Shown here in pieces: positions 36,820-45,328 of a stretch of DNA of 64,000 nt (its first letter is position 1; each line of letters opens with the position of its first letter). Position numbers and translations under genes: made by a program. Source of the DNA: Natronomonas salsuginis (GTDB taxonomy: Archaea > Halobacteriota > Halobacteria > Halobacteriales > Haloarculaceae). Location: NCBI RefSeq assembly GCF_005239135.1, contig NZ_QKNX01000001.1, forward strand, positions 124,001 through 188,000. Direction: 5' to 3'. The notes beneath the pieces were generated by a model, which did not search any database, had not been told where the DNA came from, and saw only the letters and a program-made list of their open reading frames with translations.

Positions 36820-37821
36820 TCACTCCGGCGCGAGCGCACGTACCGTCGTCCGGATCTGCTCGATATCCGCGGCACGCGGGAACGACACGGAAACCGCATC
36901 GATGCCGTCAACGTCGGAGAAGCGATCGAAGTGTTCGCGTGCCTTCTCCGGTGTTCCCCAAACGGCGATCTCCGCCAGGAGATCGTCGTCGAGCGCATCC
37001 ATCGCCGCCTCCCTGTTGCCGTCTTGCCAACTGTGGTAGATCTTGTTGGCGACGGCTTTGTGGCCCTGTCGCCCGAGGTTGTCGCGGTAGAAGGTTCCCA
37101 TCCCACCGAGATAGAACGCGGTGTGCTGTTTGACGAGTCGCTTCGCCACCGCAGGGTCGTCGTCGACACAGCACGTCAACGAGAGGGTGACCCGCTGTTG
37201 GGATCGATCCCGACCGCCCATCTCGGAGCCGCGATCGAAATCTTCGACCCGATCTTCGAGGCCGTCGCGAGTGAAAAGCAGGGCATGCCAGCCGTCGGCG
37301 AACCGACCGGCCAACTCGACGGCTTTCGGGCCCATCCCTGCAGTGTCGACCGTTGGAGCGGGATCCGGCGGCTCACACCGGAGCCGAAAGCCTCCCAGTT
37401 CGAACTATTCGCCGCCGTAGGCCACTTATTTGCCGGAGAGCACGCCTTTGACGATCTCGACCGTCTCGCGCGTGCGACGCAGCGGGTTCCCGAATTCGAC
37501 GCCGTGCCAGTTCTCGATGACGATCGGTCCCGACGGACCGAGTCCGAGCCGAAACCGACCCTCGGAGACCTCCTGGAGAGTCGCCGCGGTCTGACCGATG
37601 AGCGCCGGCGACCGCGAGTACACGGGCATGATCGACGTGCCGATGTCGATGTCCTCGGTTTCGCGTGCGATGCAGGTCGGCGTCGTGACGGCGTCTCGTC
37701 CCCACGTCTCGGGAAGCCACGCCGTGTCATACCCGAGGTCTTCACCGAGTCGTGCGCCGTCGACGAGCGAGTCGACGCTGGGCTGTGCGGCAACCGGGAG
37801 GAGTAGATCTTGTTCTGTTAT
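36820..37821 (-). pseudogene. Decayed F420-type LLM oxidoreductase
   Basis: The frame encodes a luciferase-like monooxygenase of about 333 residues: DLLLPVAAQPSVDSLVDGA, GYDTAWLPETWGRDAV, GTSIMPVYSRSPALIGQTAA, GRFRLGLGPSG, then GMGPKAVELAGRFADGWH and a C-terminal EQIRTTVRALAPE. There is no frameshift, but two in-frame stops interrupt it: TAA at 37426-37428 (codon 132) and TAG at 37405-37407 (codon 139). The expected start position (ATA ACA GAA CAA GAT, 37819-37821) reads ATA, not ATG. It lies 4 bases after the SDR stop, so it was the second gene of an SDR-LLM operon. The rest of the coding frame is intact, so decay is recent. Confidence 0.85.
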
Positions 37822-37825
37822 TTTA

Positions 37826-38602
37826 TCACAGGTGTTCGTCCTCTAGGGGTGGGACCCCCCGCGCGGTTATCGTTTCGCCGACGATGTACGAGGATGCGTC
37901 GCTGGCAAGGAACTGGACGATGTCGGCGATCTCCGCTGGGAGACCGCTCTCCTTCGCGATATCCGCCCGATCGACCCCGTCGGGATCGATCCCCATCTGT
38001 GAAGCGACGCCGGGCGTCCCGACGAGCCCCGGCGCGACGCAGTTGACCCGAACGTCGTGTTCCGCGTAGGCTCCGGCCAGCGACGTGGTGAAGTTGATCA
38101 CGGCAGCCTTCGCGGCCCCGTAGTGGCTCATGTACTTCGATCCCATCGTTCCGGCGATCGACGCGAAGTTGATGATCGTTCCGCCACTGCCCTGTCGTTG
38201 CATCCGTTTGCCGGCGATCTGTGCGCAGTGGAAGGTCCCGTGGAGATTGATATCGACGATCGTCTTCCAGCCGTTCTCGGAGATGTCGTCGATGCTCGCC
38301 ATGAACGACGCGCCCGCGTTGTTGATCATCGAATCGATCGCGCCGAACTCCGCGACGGTCTCGTCGACGAGGGCCTCGACGGCGGCCCGGTCACGCACGT
38401 CGCACTCGATCGCGATCGCCTCGCCCGGCCCGTCGCGCTCGTTGATCTCCTCGGCGACCGACTCGATCCGATCCCGCGACCGCGACGTCACGACGACGTT
38501 CGCGCCCTCCGAGGCGAACTGCCTCGCCGTGACGGCACCGATCCCCTGGCTCGAGCCGGTGATCACAGCTGTCCGTCCGTCGATCGAAAAGCGATCTGTC
38601 AT
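37826..38602 (-). CDS. SDR-family oxidoreductase
   Basis: A 258-residue short-chain dehydrogenase. The cofactor motif is TGSSQGIGAVTA (TGxxxGxG), NNAG is present, and the catalytic Ser/Tyr/Lys are in NFASIAG and HYGAAKAA. Arg after the first strand (TSRSRDR) suggests NADPH. Divergent from the MBL-HAD operon and just upstream of the decayed LLM gene. In the ACAD10/11-like block it could be the keto/hydroxyacyl-CoA reductase, by analogy with LvaD of levulinate breakdown (inference). Confidence 0.9.
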   Translation of the reverse strand: MTDRFSIDGRTAVITGSSQGIGAVTARQFASEGANVVVTSRSRDRIESVAEEINERDGPGEAIAIECDVRDRAAVEALVDETVAEFGAIDSMINNAGASFMASIDDISENGWKTIVDINLHGTFHCAQIAGKRMQRQGSGGTIINFASIAGTMGSKYMSHYGAAKAAVINFTTSLAGAYAEHDVRVNCVAPGLVGTPGVASQMGIDPDGVDRADIAKESGLPAEIADIVQFLASDASSYIVGETITARGVPPLEDEHL

Positions 38603-38688
38603 CGACGCTCACGCTCCTCGCGGTGGTCCGTTCCTGCCATGTTGTCCGCGGTTCTCGGCGATTATTAATAAAGGTATGCTCCGAGAAA

Positions 38689-38709
38689 TTTTACGAAACA
38701 TTGGTAAAC
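38689..38709. promoter_or_regulatory. Operator-like element between SDR and MBL genes
   Basis: The divergent promoter contains TTTTAC, then GAAACATTG, then GTAAAC: an imperfect dyad (TTTAC ... GTAAA). Inside it AACATTGGTAA (38697-38707) differs by one inserted base from AACATTGTAA at the ACAD and kinase promoters 3 kb away. It lies about 60-80 bases from the MBL start and about 95 bases from the SDR start. Likely a binding site of a shared regulator (inference). Confidence 0.5.
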
Positions 38710-38767
38710 AAAAAAGCGATAGCGTGAAACAAAGATTTATGCCGCCCGGCAGACCACCTTTCGGCGA

Positions 38768-39730
38768 ATGAACCAACGGAGCAGGGAAGGCTCGATCCAC
38801 CGACTGGAGTTCGACGTCGAGTGGCCGCCGGGGCACGTCGCGTGCTATCTGGTCGACGGGCCCGAACCGGTTCTCGTCGACGCCGCGATGCCGCAGAGCG
38901 ACGACGCCCTCGAAGCCGCCCTCTCGGAACACGGCAGATCGCTCGCCGAGATCGACCACGTCCTGATCACGCACCCCCACGTCGATCATATCGGCGGCGT
39001 CCCGAACGTCCTCGGGGCGACCGGCGCCACCGTTCACGCGCCCGCGAGCGTGCGCGAGCGATTCAAACGGGCGTCAGACGCGCTCGGGGAGCGCGTCCGC
39101 CGGAACTGCGTCGACGCGGGGTTTTCGGGGGAACGGCTCGAGACCCTCGTCGAAATGGCCGTCAGGTCGCTCGACCGGAACGCCGAGTTACTGCCCCCGG
39201 AAGCCGTCGACGTCTGGATCGAACCGGGGGACTCGACGTCGGTCGGGGGTATCACCGTCGACGCCGTCCACCTTCCAGGCCATCAGGCGGATCACCTGAG
39301 CTATCCGGCGGAACTCGGCGGGGAACGCGCGCTTTTCGCCGGGGACATGGGGATCCTCCCGTTTCGGCCGGTCGTCGTACACGACGGACTCGACGACGGG
39401 TACCGCGACGCATTCGCGGCGTTCTACACCGCGCTCGAACGGCTGGCCGAGGTCGACGTCGATCGGGTGTACCCCGGACACGGCCCGGTTCACTCCGACC
39501 TCGCTGACGTCGTCGATCACCACCGATCGAGCCTCGATCACCGCCTCGATCGCCTCGTCGACCTGGTCGCAGACGGCGTCGAAACGGCCCCCTCACTCGC
39601 CCGCACCGTCGCCGGCGAGTGCGACGTCAACTATCTCATCCCCGAGACGATGAGTGCGCTGGCCCACCTCGAGGCGACGGGTCGACTCGAAAGCGATAGC
39701 ACCGACGAAAGCCGACGATACCACACATGA
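38768..39730 (+). CDS. MBL-fold metallohydrolase of the ACAD block
   Basis: A 320-residue metallo-beta-lactamase-fold hydrolase with a complete metal motif: ITHPHVDHIGG, then HLPGHQADHLSY, FAGDMGILPF and YPGHGPVHSD. The C-terminal winged-helix-like tail (about 265-320) fits the LACTB2 branch, which includes thioesterase-like and nuclease members. Coupled to the HAD gene by a 4-base overlap (ATGA). In this context it may hydrolyse an acyl-CoA or lactone (inference). Confidence 0.88.
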   Translation: MNQRSREGSIHRLEFDVEWPPGHVACYLVDGPEPVLVDAAMPQSDDALEAALSEHGRSLAEIDHVLITHPHVDHIGGVPNVLGATGATVHAPASVRERFKRASDALGERVRRNCVDAGFSGERLETLVEMAVRSLDRNAELLPPEAVDVWIEPGDSTSVGGITVDAVHLPGHQADHLSYPAELGGERALFAGDMGILPFRPVVVHDGLDDGYRDAFAAFYTALERLAEVDVDRVYPGHGPVHSDLADVVDHHRSSLDHRLDRLVDLVADGVETAPSLARTVAGECDVNYLIPETMSALAHLEATGRLESDSTDESRRYHT

Positions 39731-40407
39731 GTTCGTACCGAACGGTCTTCTGGGACATCGGCGGCGTCATCGTCGAACTGAAGTCGATCCGCGAGGGATA
39801 TGCGGCGTTCATCGAGGACCTCGCCGCCGACGCGGATCTCGATTCGTCACCCGCGCTCGATCGGTGGACATCGGCTCTCGGCGAGCACTTCAAAGGGAGA
39901 GAGAAACCCCGATACCGCCTCGCCCGCGACGGCTATGCGAAGGCGACGGCGGAACTCTTCGACAACGACCCGCCGGCCGACTGGGGGGCGCGACTGGAGG
40001 CGGCGGTGTCGGCCGCCGTGCGTCCCAAACTCGGCGCGCCGGAAACGATCAGGCGTCTCTCGGGGACCGATGTCGATCAATCGATCGTCTCCGACATCGA
40101 CACGCCGGAGGCACACCTCCTGCTCGGCGCGCTCGACGTCCGCGACCGCTTCGACCACATCACGACCTCCGAGGCGGTCGGCTACACCAAGCCCGACGAG
40201 CGCATGTTTCGAGACGCGCTCGACGCGCTTTCGGCCGATCCCGATGCGACGCTCATGATCGGTGACCGGTACGGTCACGACATCGTCGGGGCGGCGGCGC
40301 TCGATATCGATACTGTCGGCTACGGTCCCGACGCGACGGGGCCGAAGACGACGTACGAGATCGACGATCTCCGCGAGGTACCGGGAATCGTCGGCATCGA
40401 CGGTTGA
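39727..40407 (+). CDS. HAD-family hydrolase
   Basis: A 226-residue haloacid-dehalogenase-like hydrolase. Motif I is FWDIGGVIVE, with nucleophile Asp10 but Gly12 in place of the usual second Asp of DxD. Motif II/III are ITTSEAVGYTKPDERMF (Lys) and MIGDRYGHDIVGA (Asp). The helical cap is inserted after motif I. The DIGGVI form is the one seen in soluble-epoxide-hydrolase N-domains and in ACAD10. Loss of the second Asp suggests a non-phosphatase reaction or weak phosphatase activity. Translationally coupled to the MBL gene. Confidence 0.88.
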   Translation: MSSYRTVFWDIGGVIVELKSIREGYAAFIEDLAADADLDSSPALDRWTSALGEHFKGREKPRYRLARDGYAKATAELFDNDPPADWGARLEAAVSAAVRPKLGAPETIRRLSGTDVDQSIVSDIDTPEAHLLLGALDVRDRFDHITTSEAVGYTKPDERMFRDALDALSADPDATLMIGDRYGHDIVGAAALDIDTVGYGPDATGPKTTYEIDDLREVPGIVGIDG

Positions 40408-40431
40408 ATAACCCTCATCGCTGAGGACCGT

Positions 40432-41646
40432 TCAGAACGTCGGCAGGTTCTCCAGTTCGTCGAGGTGCTCGACCGCCCCGTCGAACGAGTCGCGCGCGAT
40501 GACGCGCTTGTGGACCTCGTCGGCCCCATCGACCAGTCTGAACGCGCGGACGGCCTCGTAGAAGTCCGCAAGCGGTAGGTCGCGGGACATGCCCGCCCCG
40601 CCACAACACTGGATCGCGAGGTCGATCGCGTTCTGTGCGACGTTCGCGGTGAAGATCTTCGACATCGAGACCGGAACGCGGGCCTCCTCGCCGCGGGTGA
40701 TCTCCGCGGCGGCGTGACGGACCATCGTCCTGGCCCCGTGAAGCTCGGTCTCGGCGTCGGCGATCTCGTACCGGAGCGACTGTTTGTTCGAGAGGCTCGT
40801 TCCGAACGCGTTGCGGTCGGACATGTACGCCTTCGCGACGTCCAGCGCGCGCGACGCCATCCCCGAAAAGCGCATACAGTGCGTCAGTCGCGCGGGACCG
40901 AGTCGCTGTTGGGCGATCGTGAAGCCGGCGTGTTCCTCGCCGAGGAGGTTCTCGCGGGGGACGCGAACGCTGTCGAAGACGAACTCCGAGTGGCCGTGCC
41001 CGTCCATGTCGGGCCCGAGGTGGGGGATGTCGCGGACGAACTCGAGCCCGTCGGCGTCCGTCGGGACGAGGATGATCGAGGCACCGTTGTACGGGTGCGC
41101 CTCGGGATCAGTGATCGCCATCGTGAGCAGGACGTCGGCGTGACGCCCCTGGGTCGTCCACCACTTGTGCCCGTCGATGACGTACTCGTCCCCGTCCAAC
41201 TCGGCCGTCGTCGAAAGCATCTTCGGATCCGAGCCGCCGCCGTCTCGCGGTTCGGTCATCGCGAACGCCGATCGGATGTCGCCCGAGACGAGCGGTGCGA
41301 GGTACTCCTGTTTTTGCTCTTCGGTGCCGACGAGTTCCAGCGTGTGCATGTTACCCTCGTCCGGCGCGTCGACGCGCATCGCGGTCGGGCCGAGGAGCGA
41401 CCGACCGGCCTCCTCGAACAGCGGCAACACGTCCCTGAAATCGAGTCCCATCCCGCCGTACTCCTCGTCGATCTGCGGGCAGTACACGGATCGATCCTTC
41501 GCCTCCTCGCGGAGGTCCGCGATCACGTCGACGTCGGGCGGGCCACCGCCGAGCAGTCCGCGCTCTTCGGGAATGACGACCTCGTCGACGAACTCGCTGG
41601 CGCGTTCGGCGAGCTCGGTCGCCTCGGGGGAATCGTGGTATCTCAT
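40432..41646 (-). CDS. ACAD10/11-like acyl-CoA dehydrogenase
   Basis: A 404-residue FAD-dependent dehydrogenase with N-terminal helical, middle beta and C-terminal helical domains. Motifs: VDAPDEGNMHTLELVGTEEQ, AFAMTEPRDGGGSDP, GHKWWTTQGRHAD, CCGGAGMSRDLPLADFYE, and FRLVDGADEVHKRVIAR near the end. The catalytic Glu of ordinary acyl-CoA dehydrogenases falls on Asp373 (VDG), as in the ADGPDEVH pattern of ACAD11 relatives. APDEGNM also matches that branch. It stands divergent to an APH-like kinase. Start at 41646 (MRYHDSPE) matches family starts. Confidence 0.93.
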   Translation of the reverse strand: MRYHDSPEATELAERASEFVDEVVIPEERGLLGGGPPDVDVIADLREEAKDRSVYCPQIDEEYGGMGLDFRDVLPLFEEAGRSLLGPTAMRVDAPDEGNMHTLELVGTEEQKQEYLAPLVSGDIRSAFAMTEPRDGGGSDPKMLSTTAELDGDEYVIDGHKWWTTQGRHADVLLTMAITDPEAHPYNGASIILVPTDADGLEFVRDIPHLGPDMDGHGHSEFVFDSVRVPRENLLGEEHAGFTIAQQRLGPARLTHCMRFSGMASRALDVAKAYMSDRNAFGTSLSNKQSLRYEIADAETELHGARTMVRHAAAEITRGEEARVPVSMSKIFTANVAQNAIDLAIQCCGGAGMSRDLPLADFYEAVRAFRLVDGADEVHKRVIARDSFDGAVEHLDELENLPTF

Positions 41647-41664
41647 ACCACTTCTTCGCGGTAA

Positions 41665-41674
41665 AACATTGTAA
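41665..41674 (-). promoter_or_regulatory. TTACAATGTT element in ACAD promoter
   Basis: Minus strand TTTTAC-AATG-TTTTAC contains TTACAATGTT ending 18 bases before the ATG of the acyl-CoA dehydrogenase, in the TATA/BRE zone. The same ten bases occur in the same orientation to transcription before the divergent kinase gene. A repressor bound here would block both promoters (inference). Confidence 0.55.
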
Positions 41675-41746
41675 AACTCCCGTCCGCTGACTAACACGAT
41701 CGTTCGGGAGGTATGGCGGTATTTCGAGCGATGTCGGCAGATATTT

Positions 41747-41761
41747 GTGAGACGATCTCAC
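41747..41761. promoter_or_regulatory. Perfect palindrome GTGAGA-CGA-TCTCAC
   Basis: A 6-base perfect inverted repeat around CGA in the divergent ACAD/kinase promoter region, about 45 bases before the kinase ATG and just upstream of its TTACAATGTT element. Typical layout of a dimeric regulator site; no regulator is identified. Confidence 0.45.
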
Positions 41762-41769
41762 ATGTGGTC

Positions 41770-41779
41770 TTACAATGTT
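41770..41779 (+). promoter_or_regulatory. TTACAATGTT element in kinase promoter
   Basis: TTACAATGTT ends 24 bases before the kinase ATG (41804), in the TATA/BRE position. It repeats the element before the divergent acyl-CoA dehydrogenase. Supports co-regulation of the two genes. Confidence 0.55.
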
Positions 41780-41803
41780 AGTGATATCGAGTGGTGAGTC
41801 GGT

Positions 41804-42886
41804 ATGACGGGGACCGACTCCGACTACTTCGGTCGAATCGTCAACAAAGACTCGCTACGGGCGTATCTGACGGCGGAGTTGGGGTCCGTTGAGGACTACG
41901 ACGTCCGACATCATCAAGAGGGTCACTCGAACGAAACGCTGTTCGTCACCTGGGGCGACACGGAACTCGTCATCCGCCGGCCGCCGCCGGGTGACATCGC
42001 CGAAAACGCCCACGACGTGCTCAGAGAGTACAAAGTCATACACGCCCTTCAGGACACCGACGTGCGCGTTCCGCGAACCGTGCTCGCGTGCGAGGATGAA
42101 ACGATCATCGGCGATGAGTTCTACGCGATGGAGCGACAGGACGGTGACGTGCTCCGCGACACCGAACCGGAGCGGTTCGCCACGCCGGAAAAACGAGAGC
42201 GAATCGGCCACGAGATGGTCGACCGGCTCGTCGAGATTCACGACGTCGATTACGACGCCGTGGGGCTCAGTAAGGGCGACTTCGGCTACCCAGCGGGGTT
42301 CACTCACCGACAGGTCAAGCGATGGTCCAAGCAGTTGAAGTGGGCGTTCAAGGTCACCGAGGACGAACGGGAAGTCGAGGAGCTGTACGAGGTCATGGAG
42401 TGGCTCGAGGACAATGTCCCGAGCGACGACCAGTATCCGCACACGCTCGTTCACGGCGATTACAAACTCGACAACGTGATGTTCGGCCCCACCGAAGATC
42501 CGAAGATCGCGGCGATCTTCGACTGGGAGCTGTCGACGCTCGGCGATCCGTTCACCGACCTCGGGTGGATGCTGTTCTACTGGCGTGAGCCGAAGGACCC
42601 AGAGCCGGCGATTCCGTCGCTCGATCAGCCGTTCATGACGAACGATGGCTATCCGACTCGTCAGGAACTCATCGATCGCTACGAGCGAAAGACCGGCTTC
42701 GAATACGACAACCCAACGTTCTATTGGGTGCTTGCGACGTATAAACTCGCGGGGCTCGGTGAGATGTTCTTCCGCCGACATCTCGAAGGAAACGCCGACG
42801 ATCCGATGTATCCGAAGATGCGTGACGGCGTCCCCGCGCTCGCGGACCAGGCGCTCGCCATCATCGACGGCGACATGACGATTTAA
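41804..42886 (+). CDS. APH-like acyl-CoA kinase (ACAD10/11 kinase-domain type)
   Basis: A 360-residue phosphotransferase of the aminoglycoside-phosphotransferase fold. The N-lobe has EGHSNETLFVTWGDTELVIRRPPPG; the RRPPPG form is typical of ACAD10/11 kinase domains, not of drug-resistance enzymes. The catalytic loop is HGDYKLDNVMF (His217, Asp219, Asn224), and the metal Asp is in FDWELSTLGDPFTDLGW (Asp240). Relatives (LvaA, ACAD10/11) phosphorylate the hydroxyl of 4-hydroxyacyl-CoA before the dehydrogenase-like partner eliminates phosphate. Divergent with the ACAD gene and sharing its promoter element. Confidence 0.92.
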   Translation: MTGTDSDYFGRIVNKDSLRAYLTAELGSVEDYDVRHHQEGHSNETLFVTWGDTELVIRRPPPGDIAENAHDVLREYKVIHALQDTDVRVPRTVLACEDETIIGDEFYAMERQDGDVLRDTEPERFATPEKRERIGHEMVDRLVEIHDVDYDAVGLSKGDFGYPAGFTHRQVKRWSKQLKWAFKVTEDEREVEELYEVMEWLEDNVPSDDQYPHTLVHGDYKLDNVMFGPTEDPKIAAIFDWELSTLGDPFTDLGWMLFYWREPKDPEPAIPSLDQPFMTNDGYPTRQELIDRYERKTGFEYDNPTFYWVLATYKLAGLGEMFFRRHLEGNADDPMYPKMRDGVPALADQALAIIDGDMTI

Positions 42887-42943: not shown

Positions 42944-44584
42944 ATGGATCCCGTGACCCTCGCGTGGTATCTCCTTCTCGTTGCGGGGGTGACCACGTCC
43001 GTGGCCGTGCTCGTGTCGCTGAGCCGCCCCAGGGGCCGATGGGGACTGACGACTCGAAAGCGACTCGTCATGGGCGTCCCCTGGGGGACGCTCGTCGCGG
43101 TCGTCGCCGTAGCCGCGTTTTATTTGTTCGTGCAAGACGGACTCGCCAATCCGCGAAATCCGCTCGATATTCCGTTTCGGGCGTACAGCTACTTGTATCC
43201 GATCGGGATACTCACCGCCGGATTCGCTCACTCGGGGCTCGGCCACGTCACGGGCAACCTGCTCTCGACGCTCGTGTTCGGCTCGCTCGCGGAGTACGCG
43301 TGGGGTCACTTCCCGCGTCGACGCGGAAGCTTCTCGTTTTCCTCGCCGCTCTCGAACCCCCTGGTCAGGATCGCGATCTGGGTCTGCGCGATCGCCGTCG
43401 CGGCGGTGCTCACCTCCGTGTTCGGCCTCGGGCCGGTGATCGGCTTCTCCGGCGTCGTCTACGCTTTCGTCGGGTTCGCCCTCGTTCGGTTCCCGATCGC
43501 GACCGCCGTCGTTGCGCTTTCGACGCGAATCGTCACGGAGCTGTACAACGCGGTGTTGGTGCCCGAAATCCAGCGGACCGCCGTCGAAACGTTTTCGCGG
43601 CCGTGGTGGGCAGGAATCGCGATCCAGGGACACGCGCTCGGGCTCTTGCTCGGCGCGACGGCGGGTATCGCGCTGTTGCACCGCCGGGACGTTCGACCGA
43701 AGCCGGAACATGTCTGGATCGCGGCGCTCGCCTTCGCCGTCGACCGGGGGCTGTGGGCGATCTACGTCCCGGAGGGCTCCGAGACGTTTCGGCTCTTTCG
43801 AGCGCTCGGGATGGCGTCGGTGTTCGTGCTCGCCGCCCTCGTCGCGAGCGGTGCGACCGCGACGACCCGCGAGTTGCTCCCGCGTATCGATCTCTCGCGC
43901 CGCGAGGCGGCGTTCGGATCGGTTCTGGCGGTCGTCCTGGCGATCTCGTTCGTCACCGTCCCGCTCAACCTCTACGCCGTGGACGACCCTTCCGCGGGGT
44001 TGGAAGACGCCGAGCCGACCGAGATCAGGGATTACACGGTCTTTTACGCCGAGAACGTGGAAAACCAGTTCGTCCCTGCCGTTCCGATCCCTGGCCAGGA
44101 AAACGTGACCGACGGCCGCGTCAACGCGAGCGGCGTCATCGTCGTCTCGGAGCGACGAAACATCTGGTGGGAGGAAGTGTCGGCCGGGCGTCTCGAAACG
44201 AACGGCGCGGCGACGATCCGGATCGGCGGCCTCTCTTGGAGGGAGGACGTTCGCGTGACGCGGGAGACGTGGGCGGTCGCAGGCGGTAACTCGACTCACA
44301 ACGTCCGCCTCGGGCCCGCGGCCGCCGAGGAACGACCCGTCGTCTTTCGAGCTGATCCCGCCCGCTCGGACGCCGTCGTCGACGGCCGGAACGTCACGAT
44401 CGCGCCCGTCGGGGACCGGTTCGAAGCGAGGGTGTTCTATCGGGGCGATCGAGTCGGGTCGACGGTGATTCCAGCGGACAACGTGACGACGACCGCGGGC
44501 GGGCTCACCTTCGTCCGCGCGGGGCGAAGCCTGTTCGTCAAACGGGGCGAAACGCGGGTTCGAATCGCCCAACGGGCAGCCTGA
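42944..44584 (+). CDS. Rhomboid-family intramembrane protease with extra outside domain
   Basis: A 546-residue membrane protein. The rhomboid core (about 75-260) shows AHSGLGHVTGNLLSTLVFG, the catalytic Ser in GFSGVVYAF (Ser169) and His in IQGHALGLLLG (His230). Further transmembrane segments run to about residue 350. The last 190 residues are hydrophilic and beta-rich with several N-x-S/T sequons (NVT, NAS, NST), suggesting an extracellular, possibly glycosylated domain. It cleaves membrane proteins within the bilayer; the substrate is unknown. Confidence 0.88.
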   Translation: MDPVTLAWYLLLVAGVTTSVAVLVSLSRPRGRWGLTTRKRLVMGVPWGTLVAVVAVAAFYLFVQDGLANPRNPLDIPFRAYSYLYPIGILTAGFAHSGLGHVTGNLLSTLVFGSLAEYAWGHFPRRRGSFSFSSPLSNPLVRIAIWVCAIAVAAVLTSVFGLGPVIGFSGVVYAFVGFALVRFPIATAVVALSTRIVTELYNAVLVPEIQRTAVETFSRPWWAGIAIQGHALGLLLGATAGIALLHRRDVRPKPEHVWIAALAFAVDRGLWAIYVPEGSETFRLFRALGMASVFVLAALVASGATATTRELLPRIDLSRREAAFGSVLAVVLAISFVTVPLNLYAVDDPSAGLEDAEPTEIRDYTVFYAENVENQFVPAVPIPGQENVTDGRVNASGVIVVSERRNIWWEEVSAGRLETNGAATIRIGGLSWREDVRVTRETWAVAGGNSTHNVRLGPAAAEERPVVFRADPARSDAVVDGRNVTIAPVGDRFEARVFYRGDRVGSTVIPADNVTTTAGGLTFVRAGRSLFVKRGETRVRIAQRAA

Positions 44585-44585
44585 G

Positions 44586-45227
44586 CTACACCCACTCGAT
44601 CCGGTACACTTCGGTGTCGATCGATCGGGAGGCGGACGTGTGGTGATCGAACTGTTTCGGCAGCTCGAACTCGGCGGCGAACGCGTGCGTCACGGTGCCG
44701 CCGTTGTCGCCGGCGAAGGCCTCGATGAACGATTCGCTGCCGGCGTTGTGAACGGAGTACGAGACGCTCGATATCTCGGCGGCCGTCTGCAGAAAGGCTC
44801 GATCGGCCCCCTCGTTGCCGGACTGTGCGCCGAACGGCGGGTTCATCAGGACGGTCGCCGGCCCGTTGGGGGCGAGCGGAACCGCGGTCACGTCGCCACG
44901 AACCCACGAGACGTCCGTCATCGCGCCGACTCGGCGTTCGTTCTCGCGCGCCGTCGAGAGCGGTGCGGGATCGATATCCATTCCGACGGCCCGTTCGGGC
45001 CCCCGAAGCGCCGCGCCGAGCGCGAGCATTCCCGTTCCACACCCTAGATCGAGGACTGTCTGGCCCTCCACATCGCCCTGCAGGTCAGCCACGTGGACGA
45101 TGTGGGCAGCCAGATCGGGCGGCGTGTGGTACTGTTCGAGCGGCGCGCGCGGGTCTTCGAAGCCCGCGACGACCGCCAACTCCTGGGCCAATCGTCGTCG
45201 TGTCGCGCCGGGCGTCCCCTCTGTCAT
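44586..45227 (-). CDS. METTL5-like N6-adenine methyltransferase
   Basis: A 213-residue SAM-dependent methyltransferase. The N-terminal LEQYHTPPDLAAHIV motif, the SAM site VLDLGCGTGMLALGA and the catalytic MNPPFGAQ (NPPF) are those of the archaeal METTL5 group, which methylates adenine in structured RNA (18S rRNA in eukaryotes). It is convergent with the rhomboid gene, with stops 2 bases apart. Start at 45227 is supported by an AATTTATACC TATA box about 28 bases upstream. Confidence 0.9.
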   Translation of the reverse strand: MTEGTPGATRRRLAQELAVVAGFEDPRAPLEQYHTPPDLAAHIVHVADLQGDVEGQTVLDLGCGTGMLALGAALRGPERAVGMDIDPAPLSTARENERRVGAMTDVSWVRGDVTAVPLAPNGPATVLMNPPFGAQSGNEGADRAFLQTAAEISSVSYSVHNAGSESFIEAFAGDNGGTVTHAFAAEFELPKQFDHHTSASRSIDTEVYRIEWV

Positions 45228-45328
45228 CGTTGTGTAATACTCGTGGGTATAGGTATAAATTTGTATATGATTGTGGGTTATTCTACATCGGGAGTACATT
45301 CTTTTCACCGCCGATGTAACGCCTCGCC

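Follow-up and report, generated by a model that had tools for sequence, protein, structure and literature searches.

4-Hydroxy acids can be processed by a phospho-elimination route that relies on a kinase and an acyl-CoA dehydrogenase (ACAD). In Pseudomonas putida the Lva system comprises the kinase LvaA, the ACAD LvaC, the reductase LvaD and the CoA ligase LvaE. Animals have kinase and ACAD fused in ACAD10 and ACAD11, which serve in the breakdown of 4-hydroxy fatty acids. In mouse ACAD11 the residues R626, H634 and R637 (the HCMR motif) hold the 4-phosphate, while D753 is the base (PMC12440821). Animal ACAD10 contains in addition a HAD domain without the second Asp of its catalytic motif; this domain had negligible phosphatase activity but restrained the kinase, and mutating its remaining Asp led to a higher kinase activity (PMC11342911). 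The lva cluster of P. citronellolis LA18T combines a kinase, a histidine phosphatase, an ACAD and an SDR, and the phosphatase has been proposed to remove the phosphate that the kinase adds (PMC6692424). In the literature that we searched, we found no report of an archaeal ACAD10/11 or of an archaeal phospho-elimination route for 4-hydroxy acids. Here, we describe a block of five intact genes, identified from open reading frames and Pfam matches, in the 2.9 Mb genome of the haloarchaeon Natronomonas salsuginis (GCF_005239135.1, contig NZ_QKNX01000001.1, 124,001-188,000; this stretch of 64,000 nucleotides is called the window and coordinates are window positions). Judged by residues and trees, its kinase and ACAD represent the known two-enzyme system in an archaeal branch. 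The strongest new point is the link between this kinase and a stand-alone HAD protein, a proposed dedicated partner that is tightly co-inherited with it.

The ACAD matches the mouse enzyme at all diagnostic positions. R248, R253, H256-C-M-R259 and D373 align to R626, R631, H634-C-M-R637 and D753 of ACAD11, and with D373 a catalytic Asp replaces the Glu. The signature R-x4-R-x2-HxMR together with DGxDEVH is present in 46/46 kinase-type haloarchaeal ACADs and in none of the 42 other ACADs of the same loci, nearly all of which end in the usual EGT or DGTTEI. In the tree, a clade with support of 100/99 unites this ACAD type with ACAD11 of human and mouse, with 4hr3 of M. abscessus and with four kinase-linked ACADs from bacteria, and the other haloarchaeal ACADs fall outside. 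By residues, motif and tree the window ACAD is of the LvaC / ACAD10-11 type, in comparisons that, as for the kinase, were made without P. putida LvaC and LvaA themselves.

The kinase has an APH fold with an HGDxxxDN catalytic loop, and its best PDB matches are 9o56, 3dxp and mouse ACAD11 (8v3v). Its catalytic residues D219 and N224 align to D220 and N225 of ACAD11, and the proposed CoA-binding Arg is present as well (R169, corresponding to R176). The haloarchaeal kinases form one branch (93/95), which lies within the family relative to the APH outgroup 9fsg; the ACAD11 kinase groups with a bacterial set apart from this branch, in a tree with weak deep nodes and without LvaA. We place the kinase on this sequence evidence in a haloarchaeal branch of the APH family that includes LvaA and ACAD11. 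An earlier reading of the window, the original prediction, had pointed to an RRPPPG motif in the kinase N-lobe and to a DGADEVH end of the ACAD, and both are found in the sequence. It had also named a placement of the two enzymes outside the ACAD10/11-Lva families as evidence that would speak against it; residue tests and trees place both in these families, the kinase as a separate haloarchaeal branch with weakly supported deep nodes.

The HAD protein follows the kinase closely through the Halobacteria. Of 322 genomes of at least 90% completeness, 114 encode the HAD, 160 the kinase and 113 both (Fisher 4e-47, shared ancestry uncorrected). General beta-oxidation as a common cause was rejected, as a beta-oxidation marker is found in 295 of the 322 genomes and the association within those 295 amounts to 1e-41. 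In genus g3 (family and genus labels are ours) 12 genomes have HAD and kinase and, among the genomes listed, none has only one of them. An ACAD of this type, linked or unlinked, is present in 22/22 sampled genomes with HAD and kinase. The only HAD genome without a full kinase (G359) has a HAD that lacks its N-terminal half and no ACAD of this type. At this locus (G359:C14, L155 4400-7300) kinase residues 8-67 are joined to the middle of a 3-hydroxyacyl-CoA dehydrogenase (3HCDH) gene at residue 209, possibly by a deletion through a HAD-kinase-3HCDH operon or by misassembly.

A conserved neighbourhood in other haloarchaeal genomes, the absence of which would have counted against the original prediction, is also found. 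Four genes, SDR-HAD-ACAD-kinase, make up the core that is conserved in Halobacteria, and a 3HCDH often accompanies them. ACAD and kinase, and likewise HAD and kinase, are linked in many haloarchaeal genera, so that chance is no explanation for the arrangement. Of the 50 HAD genes in family f3, 31 precede the kinase gene on the same strand by 97-302 bp, often with a 3HCDH next. SDR-HAD-ACAD-kinase cassettes without the MBL gene are found in genus g3, in families f6 and f10 and on plasmid pHME132 of Haloferax mediterranei; a 3HCDH stands between ACAD and kinase in some of them and 3' of the kinase on pHME132. The SDR orthologue (58-81% identical) adjoins the HAD in most loci of several families, and in Haladaptatus a MaoC dehydratase gene overlaps the kinase gene by 4 bp. 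In Haloarculaceae there are two recurring blocks, LLM-SDR-MBL-HAD and ACAD-kinase-rhomboid-methyltransferase, which adjoin in the window, are at most about 6 kb apart in about nine congeners and lie far apart in other genera, from several kb to megabases. The rhomboid-like protein and the methyltransferase come after the kinase in the majority of Haloarculaceae loci. The MBL hydrolase was considered as a core member and rejected: it adjoins the HAD in one other genus and in most loci of Haloarculaceae, whereas most cassettes of the other families, and those of g3, lack it. As a separate observation, a genome of family f4 (L139 8206-10010, G165) has a second HAD-kinase pair, in which a more divergent kinase (56%) follows the HAD at a distance of 80 bp; a MaoC gene and CoA ligases lie in the vicinity.

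We take the HAD of ACAD10 to be of the TIGR02247 (sEH-N-like) type. The window HAD scores 28.9 bits against this model (cut-off 125.4), less than against CTE7, RUBPPhHalo and others. Among structures it is closest to PH0459 and the BH32 engineered derivatives of PH0459, and a structure prediction from three sequences, of modest confidence (pLDDT 71), again came closest to PH0459/BH32; its closest named relatives are from Natronomonas. An ACAD10-type HAD is not supported and was rejected on the weak TIGR02247 score and the nearer PH0459/CTE7 proteins, ACAD10 itself not having been scored. No TIGR02247 HADs were found on 14 kinase-carrying plasmid records. In 81/81 relatives D10, S122, K155, D180 and D185 are invariant, and in the same 81 the second Asp of the DxD motif, the acid/base, is a Gly (G12). 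Among the distant PDB matches is E. coli YihX, an active phosphatase with a DxG motif, so that DxG alone is no proof of inactivity.

The layout of the locus is summarized in the table. HAD, kinase and ACAD are three separate open reading frames, unlike the single polypeptide of ACAD10, and the MBL and HAD genes overlap by 4 bp. Positions and families of the five genes are those of the original prediction. It had counted six genes; the next gene, for an LLM oxidoreductase, is broken by in-frame stops at 37428-37426 (TAA) and 37407-37405 (TAG). Its frame is otherwise full-length and 78% identical, and the gene is open in the 8 congeners checked. The gaps flanking the kinase are at most about 160 bp and leave no room beside it for an LvaB (about 12 kDa). 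The window cassette has no CoA ligase; CoA ligases are present in the cassettes of some relatives.

Table. Genes of the HAD-ACAD-kinase locus and its flanks in the window.
Feature	Position	Strand	Evidence
SDR oxidoreductase, conserved core neighbour	37826-38602	-	Pfam adh_short
MBL-fold hydrolase, lineage-specific addition	38768-39730	+	Pfam Lactamase_B
Stand-alone HAD-IA protein, motif I DIGG (second Asp absent)	39727-40407	+	Pfam Hydrolase/HAD_2
Acyl-CoA dehydrogenase, ACAD10/11-LvaC type	40432-41646	-	Residues, motif, tree
APH-fold kinase, LvaA / ACAD10-11 kinase-domain type	41804-42886	+	Pfam APH 1.8e-45, PDB matches, residues, tree
Broken F420-dependent LLM oxidoreductase (TIGR04024, F420_NP1902A), adjoins SDR	about 36820-37818	-	
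Rhomboid-like membrane protein, then methyltransferase, after kinase	42944-45308	+, then -	

On another contig (L096 8358-15064, G000:C5) the genome carries a further ACAD/kinase pair in divergent orientation, with a kinase 58% identical to that of the window and no HAD. A thiolase, a 3HCDH-like gene and one more ACAD follow this pair, and a MaoC-like gene flanks it on the opposite side. A third ACAD of this type is unlinked. In some genera (G047-G050, G144) kinase paralogues number three to six and there are several such ACADs, which suggests an expansion for different substrates.

The whole is best explained, and in our view probably, by a cassette that feeds 4-hydroxyacyl-CoA into beta-oxidation, with the HAD as dedicated partner of the kinase. 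This reading draws on the genes present, on their diagnostic residues and phylogeny, and on the way they are linked and co-inherited; the reactions we infer from characterised relatives, and the roles of HAD and SDR and the natural substrate are put forward more tentatively. The SDR may reduce a 4-oxoacyl-CoA, for example levulinyl-CoA, to the 4-hydroxyacyl-CoA, an LvaD-like role. The kinase, a proposed 4-hydroxyacyl-CoA kinase, would phosphorylate the 4-hydroxyl in an ATP-dependent manner. With FAD (flavin adenine dinucleotide) and its catalytic Asp the ACAD would eliminate the phosphate and return the electrons, a proposed conversion that turns 4-phosphoacyl-CoA into 2-enoyl-CoA without an external acceptor and without net oxidation. 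The breakdown would be completed by a hydratase, a 3-hydroxyacyl-CoA dehydrogenase and a thiolase; 3HCDH, MaoC dehydratase and thiolase genes, for the enzymes expected to use the 2-enoyl-CoA product, are neighbours in many relatives and at the second copy. The HAD may act as a kinase regulator or as a counteracting phosphatase: it would sense or slowly hydrolyse the phosphorylated intermediate and thereby limit its build-up, as the HAD domain of ACAD10 does in cis. It is conceivable, although we rate the chance as somewhat below even, that archaea independently recruited another HAD subfamily, one that has likewise lost the acid/base Asp, to serve as a separate protein that restrains a 4-hydroxyacyl-CoA kinase, convergent with the ACAD10 HAD and with the histidine phosphatase of some bacterial lva clusters.

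Several observations weigh against a cassette of this kind. The haloarchaeal kinases are not nested with ACAD11 but form their own branch, and the deep kinase nodes are weak. There are 47 genomes with the kinase and without the HAD; the HAD is therefore not essential to the chemistry. The co-occurrence statistics ignore the kinship of the 322 genomes. In the window the HAD sits in an MBL-HAD operon, and in several genera a long distance separates it from the kinase. The SDR resembles bacterial kinase-linked SDRs no more than it does other SDRs, and similarity gives no indication for or against an LvaD-like SDR. The behaviour of LLM-SDR-MBL-HAD and ACAD-kinase-rhomboid-methyltransferase as two blocks in Haloarculaceae could even mean that HAD, MBL, SDR and LLM oxidoreductase form a separate pathway, and that their place beside ACAD and kinase in the window is incidental. 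This is very improbable, however, given that the HAD is found together with the kinase in 113 of 114 genomes and adjacent to it in f3, that SDR, HAD, ACAD and kinase form one contiguous set in g3, f6, f10 and Haloferax mediterranei, and that G359 has lost or broken all three of HAD, kinase and ACAD. For HAD and SDR a separate pathway is largely refuted, while for MBL and LLM oxidoreductase it may hold.

Two further alternatives concern the role of the HAD and the substrate of kinase and ACAD. The HAD might be an enzyme of metabolite repair and not a kinase regulator, a working phosphatase by which stalled 4-phosphoacyl-CoA or 4-phospho acids are removed. Its nucleophile Asp, Ser, Lys and the GDxxxxD aspartates, all invariant in the 81 relatives, would suit such an enzyme, and the DxG form occurs in YihX, an active phosphatase and one of its distant matches. 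A histidine phosphatase adjoining the kinase in bacterial clusters points in the same direction (PMC6692424). However, the acid/base Asp is Gly in all 81, and the ACAD10 HAD with the same loss has negligible phosphatase activity (PMC11342911); we consider a working phosphatase a serious possibility, if not the one to be expected. Kinase and ACAD, for their part, could perform the same chemistry on another hydroxyacyl-CoA (branched, isoprenoid-derived or 5-hydroxy) and not on simple 4-hydroxy acids. Up to six paralogous kinases per genome, the separate branch of the haloarchaeal kinases and the lack of a conserved substrate-specific neighbour in the window would fit with this, but the HCMR/Arg phosphate-binding set is identical to that of ACAD11, which acts on 4-phospho substrates, and a different substrate seems unlikely to us.

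If feeding of 4-hydroxyacyl-CoA into beta-oxidation is correct, the 4-hydroxy-acid phospho-elimination route extends to Archaea. In the haloarchaea three separate soluble proteins, HAD, kinase and ACAD, are co-inherited across many genera, which makes the effects of a HAD on its kinase accessible to plain mixing experiments and to deletion of single genes. The cassette, carried on pHME132, may bear on two traits of H. mediterranei, levulinate growth and polyhydroxyalkanoate (PHA) that contains 4-hydroxybutyrate. This organism has been reported to grow on levulinate, which is weak support because the growth rate on formate was similar in the same study and background growth is possible (PMC12455835). 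It also builds butyrolactone-derived 4-hydroxybutyrate into PHA (PMC3880725).

The original prediction regarded the block as a "split" ACAD10/11 system. We rejected a split ACAD10, as separate genes for kinase and ACAD are the ordinary bacterial (Lva) state. P. putida Lva likewise has the two as separate genes of the same two families; the SDR adjoins in the haloarchaea, and CoA ligases appear in cassettes of some relatives. Unlike Lva, the haloarchaeal cassette includes a HAD, its ACAD and kinase are divergent and its host is an archaeon, and the window cassette has neither the space for an LvaB-size gene by the kinase nor a ligase. Plasmid-borne bacterial kinase and ACAD genes, usually with an SDR, occur in Deinococcus, Aminobacter, Sulfitobacter dubius, Pseudosulfitobacter and Streptomyces. 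In the bacterial kinase/ACAD loci examined no HAD is annotated (one record carries no annotation), and a histidine phosphatase adjoins the kinase in two of them, Sulfitobacter pontiacus and Deinococcus QL22. The lva cluster of P. citronellolis LA18T has the same set of kinase, phosphatase-family protein, ACAD and SDR, but its histidine phosphatase is unrelated to HAD. With animal ACAD11 the haloarchaeal enzymes share identical diagnostic residues (window ACAD 248, 256-259 and 373; kinase 169, 219 and 224), although they are unfused and form a separate branch. Animal ACAD10 differs in that its three parts are not separate proteins, and the haloarchaeal HAD is nearer to PH0459/CTE7 than to TIGR02247 (sEH-like). 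Common to both are the combination of HAD, kinase and ACAD and a HAD without the second Asp of DxD, and the order HAD-then-kinase of family f3 is the domain order of ACAD10. The haloarchaeal HAD would thus fill the slot that is taken by an unrelated phosphatase in some bacteria and by the HAD domain in ACAD10.

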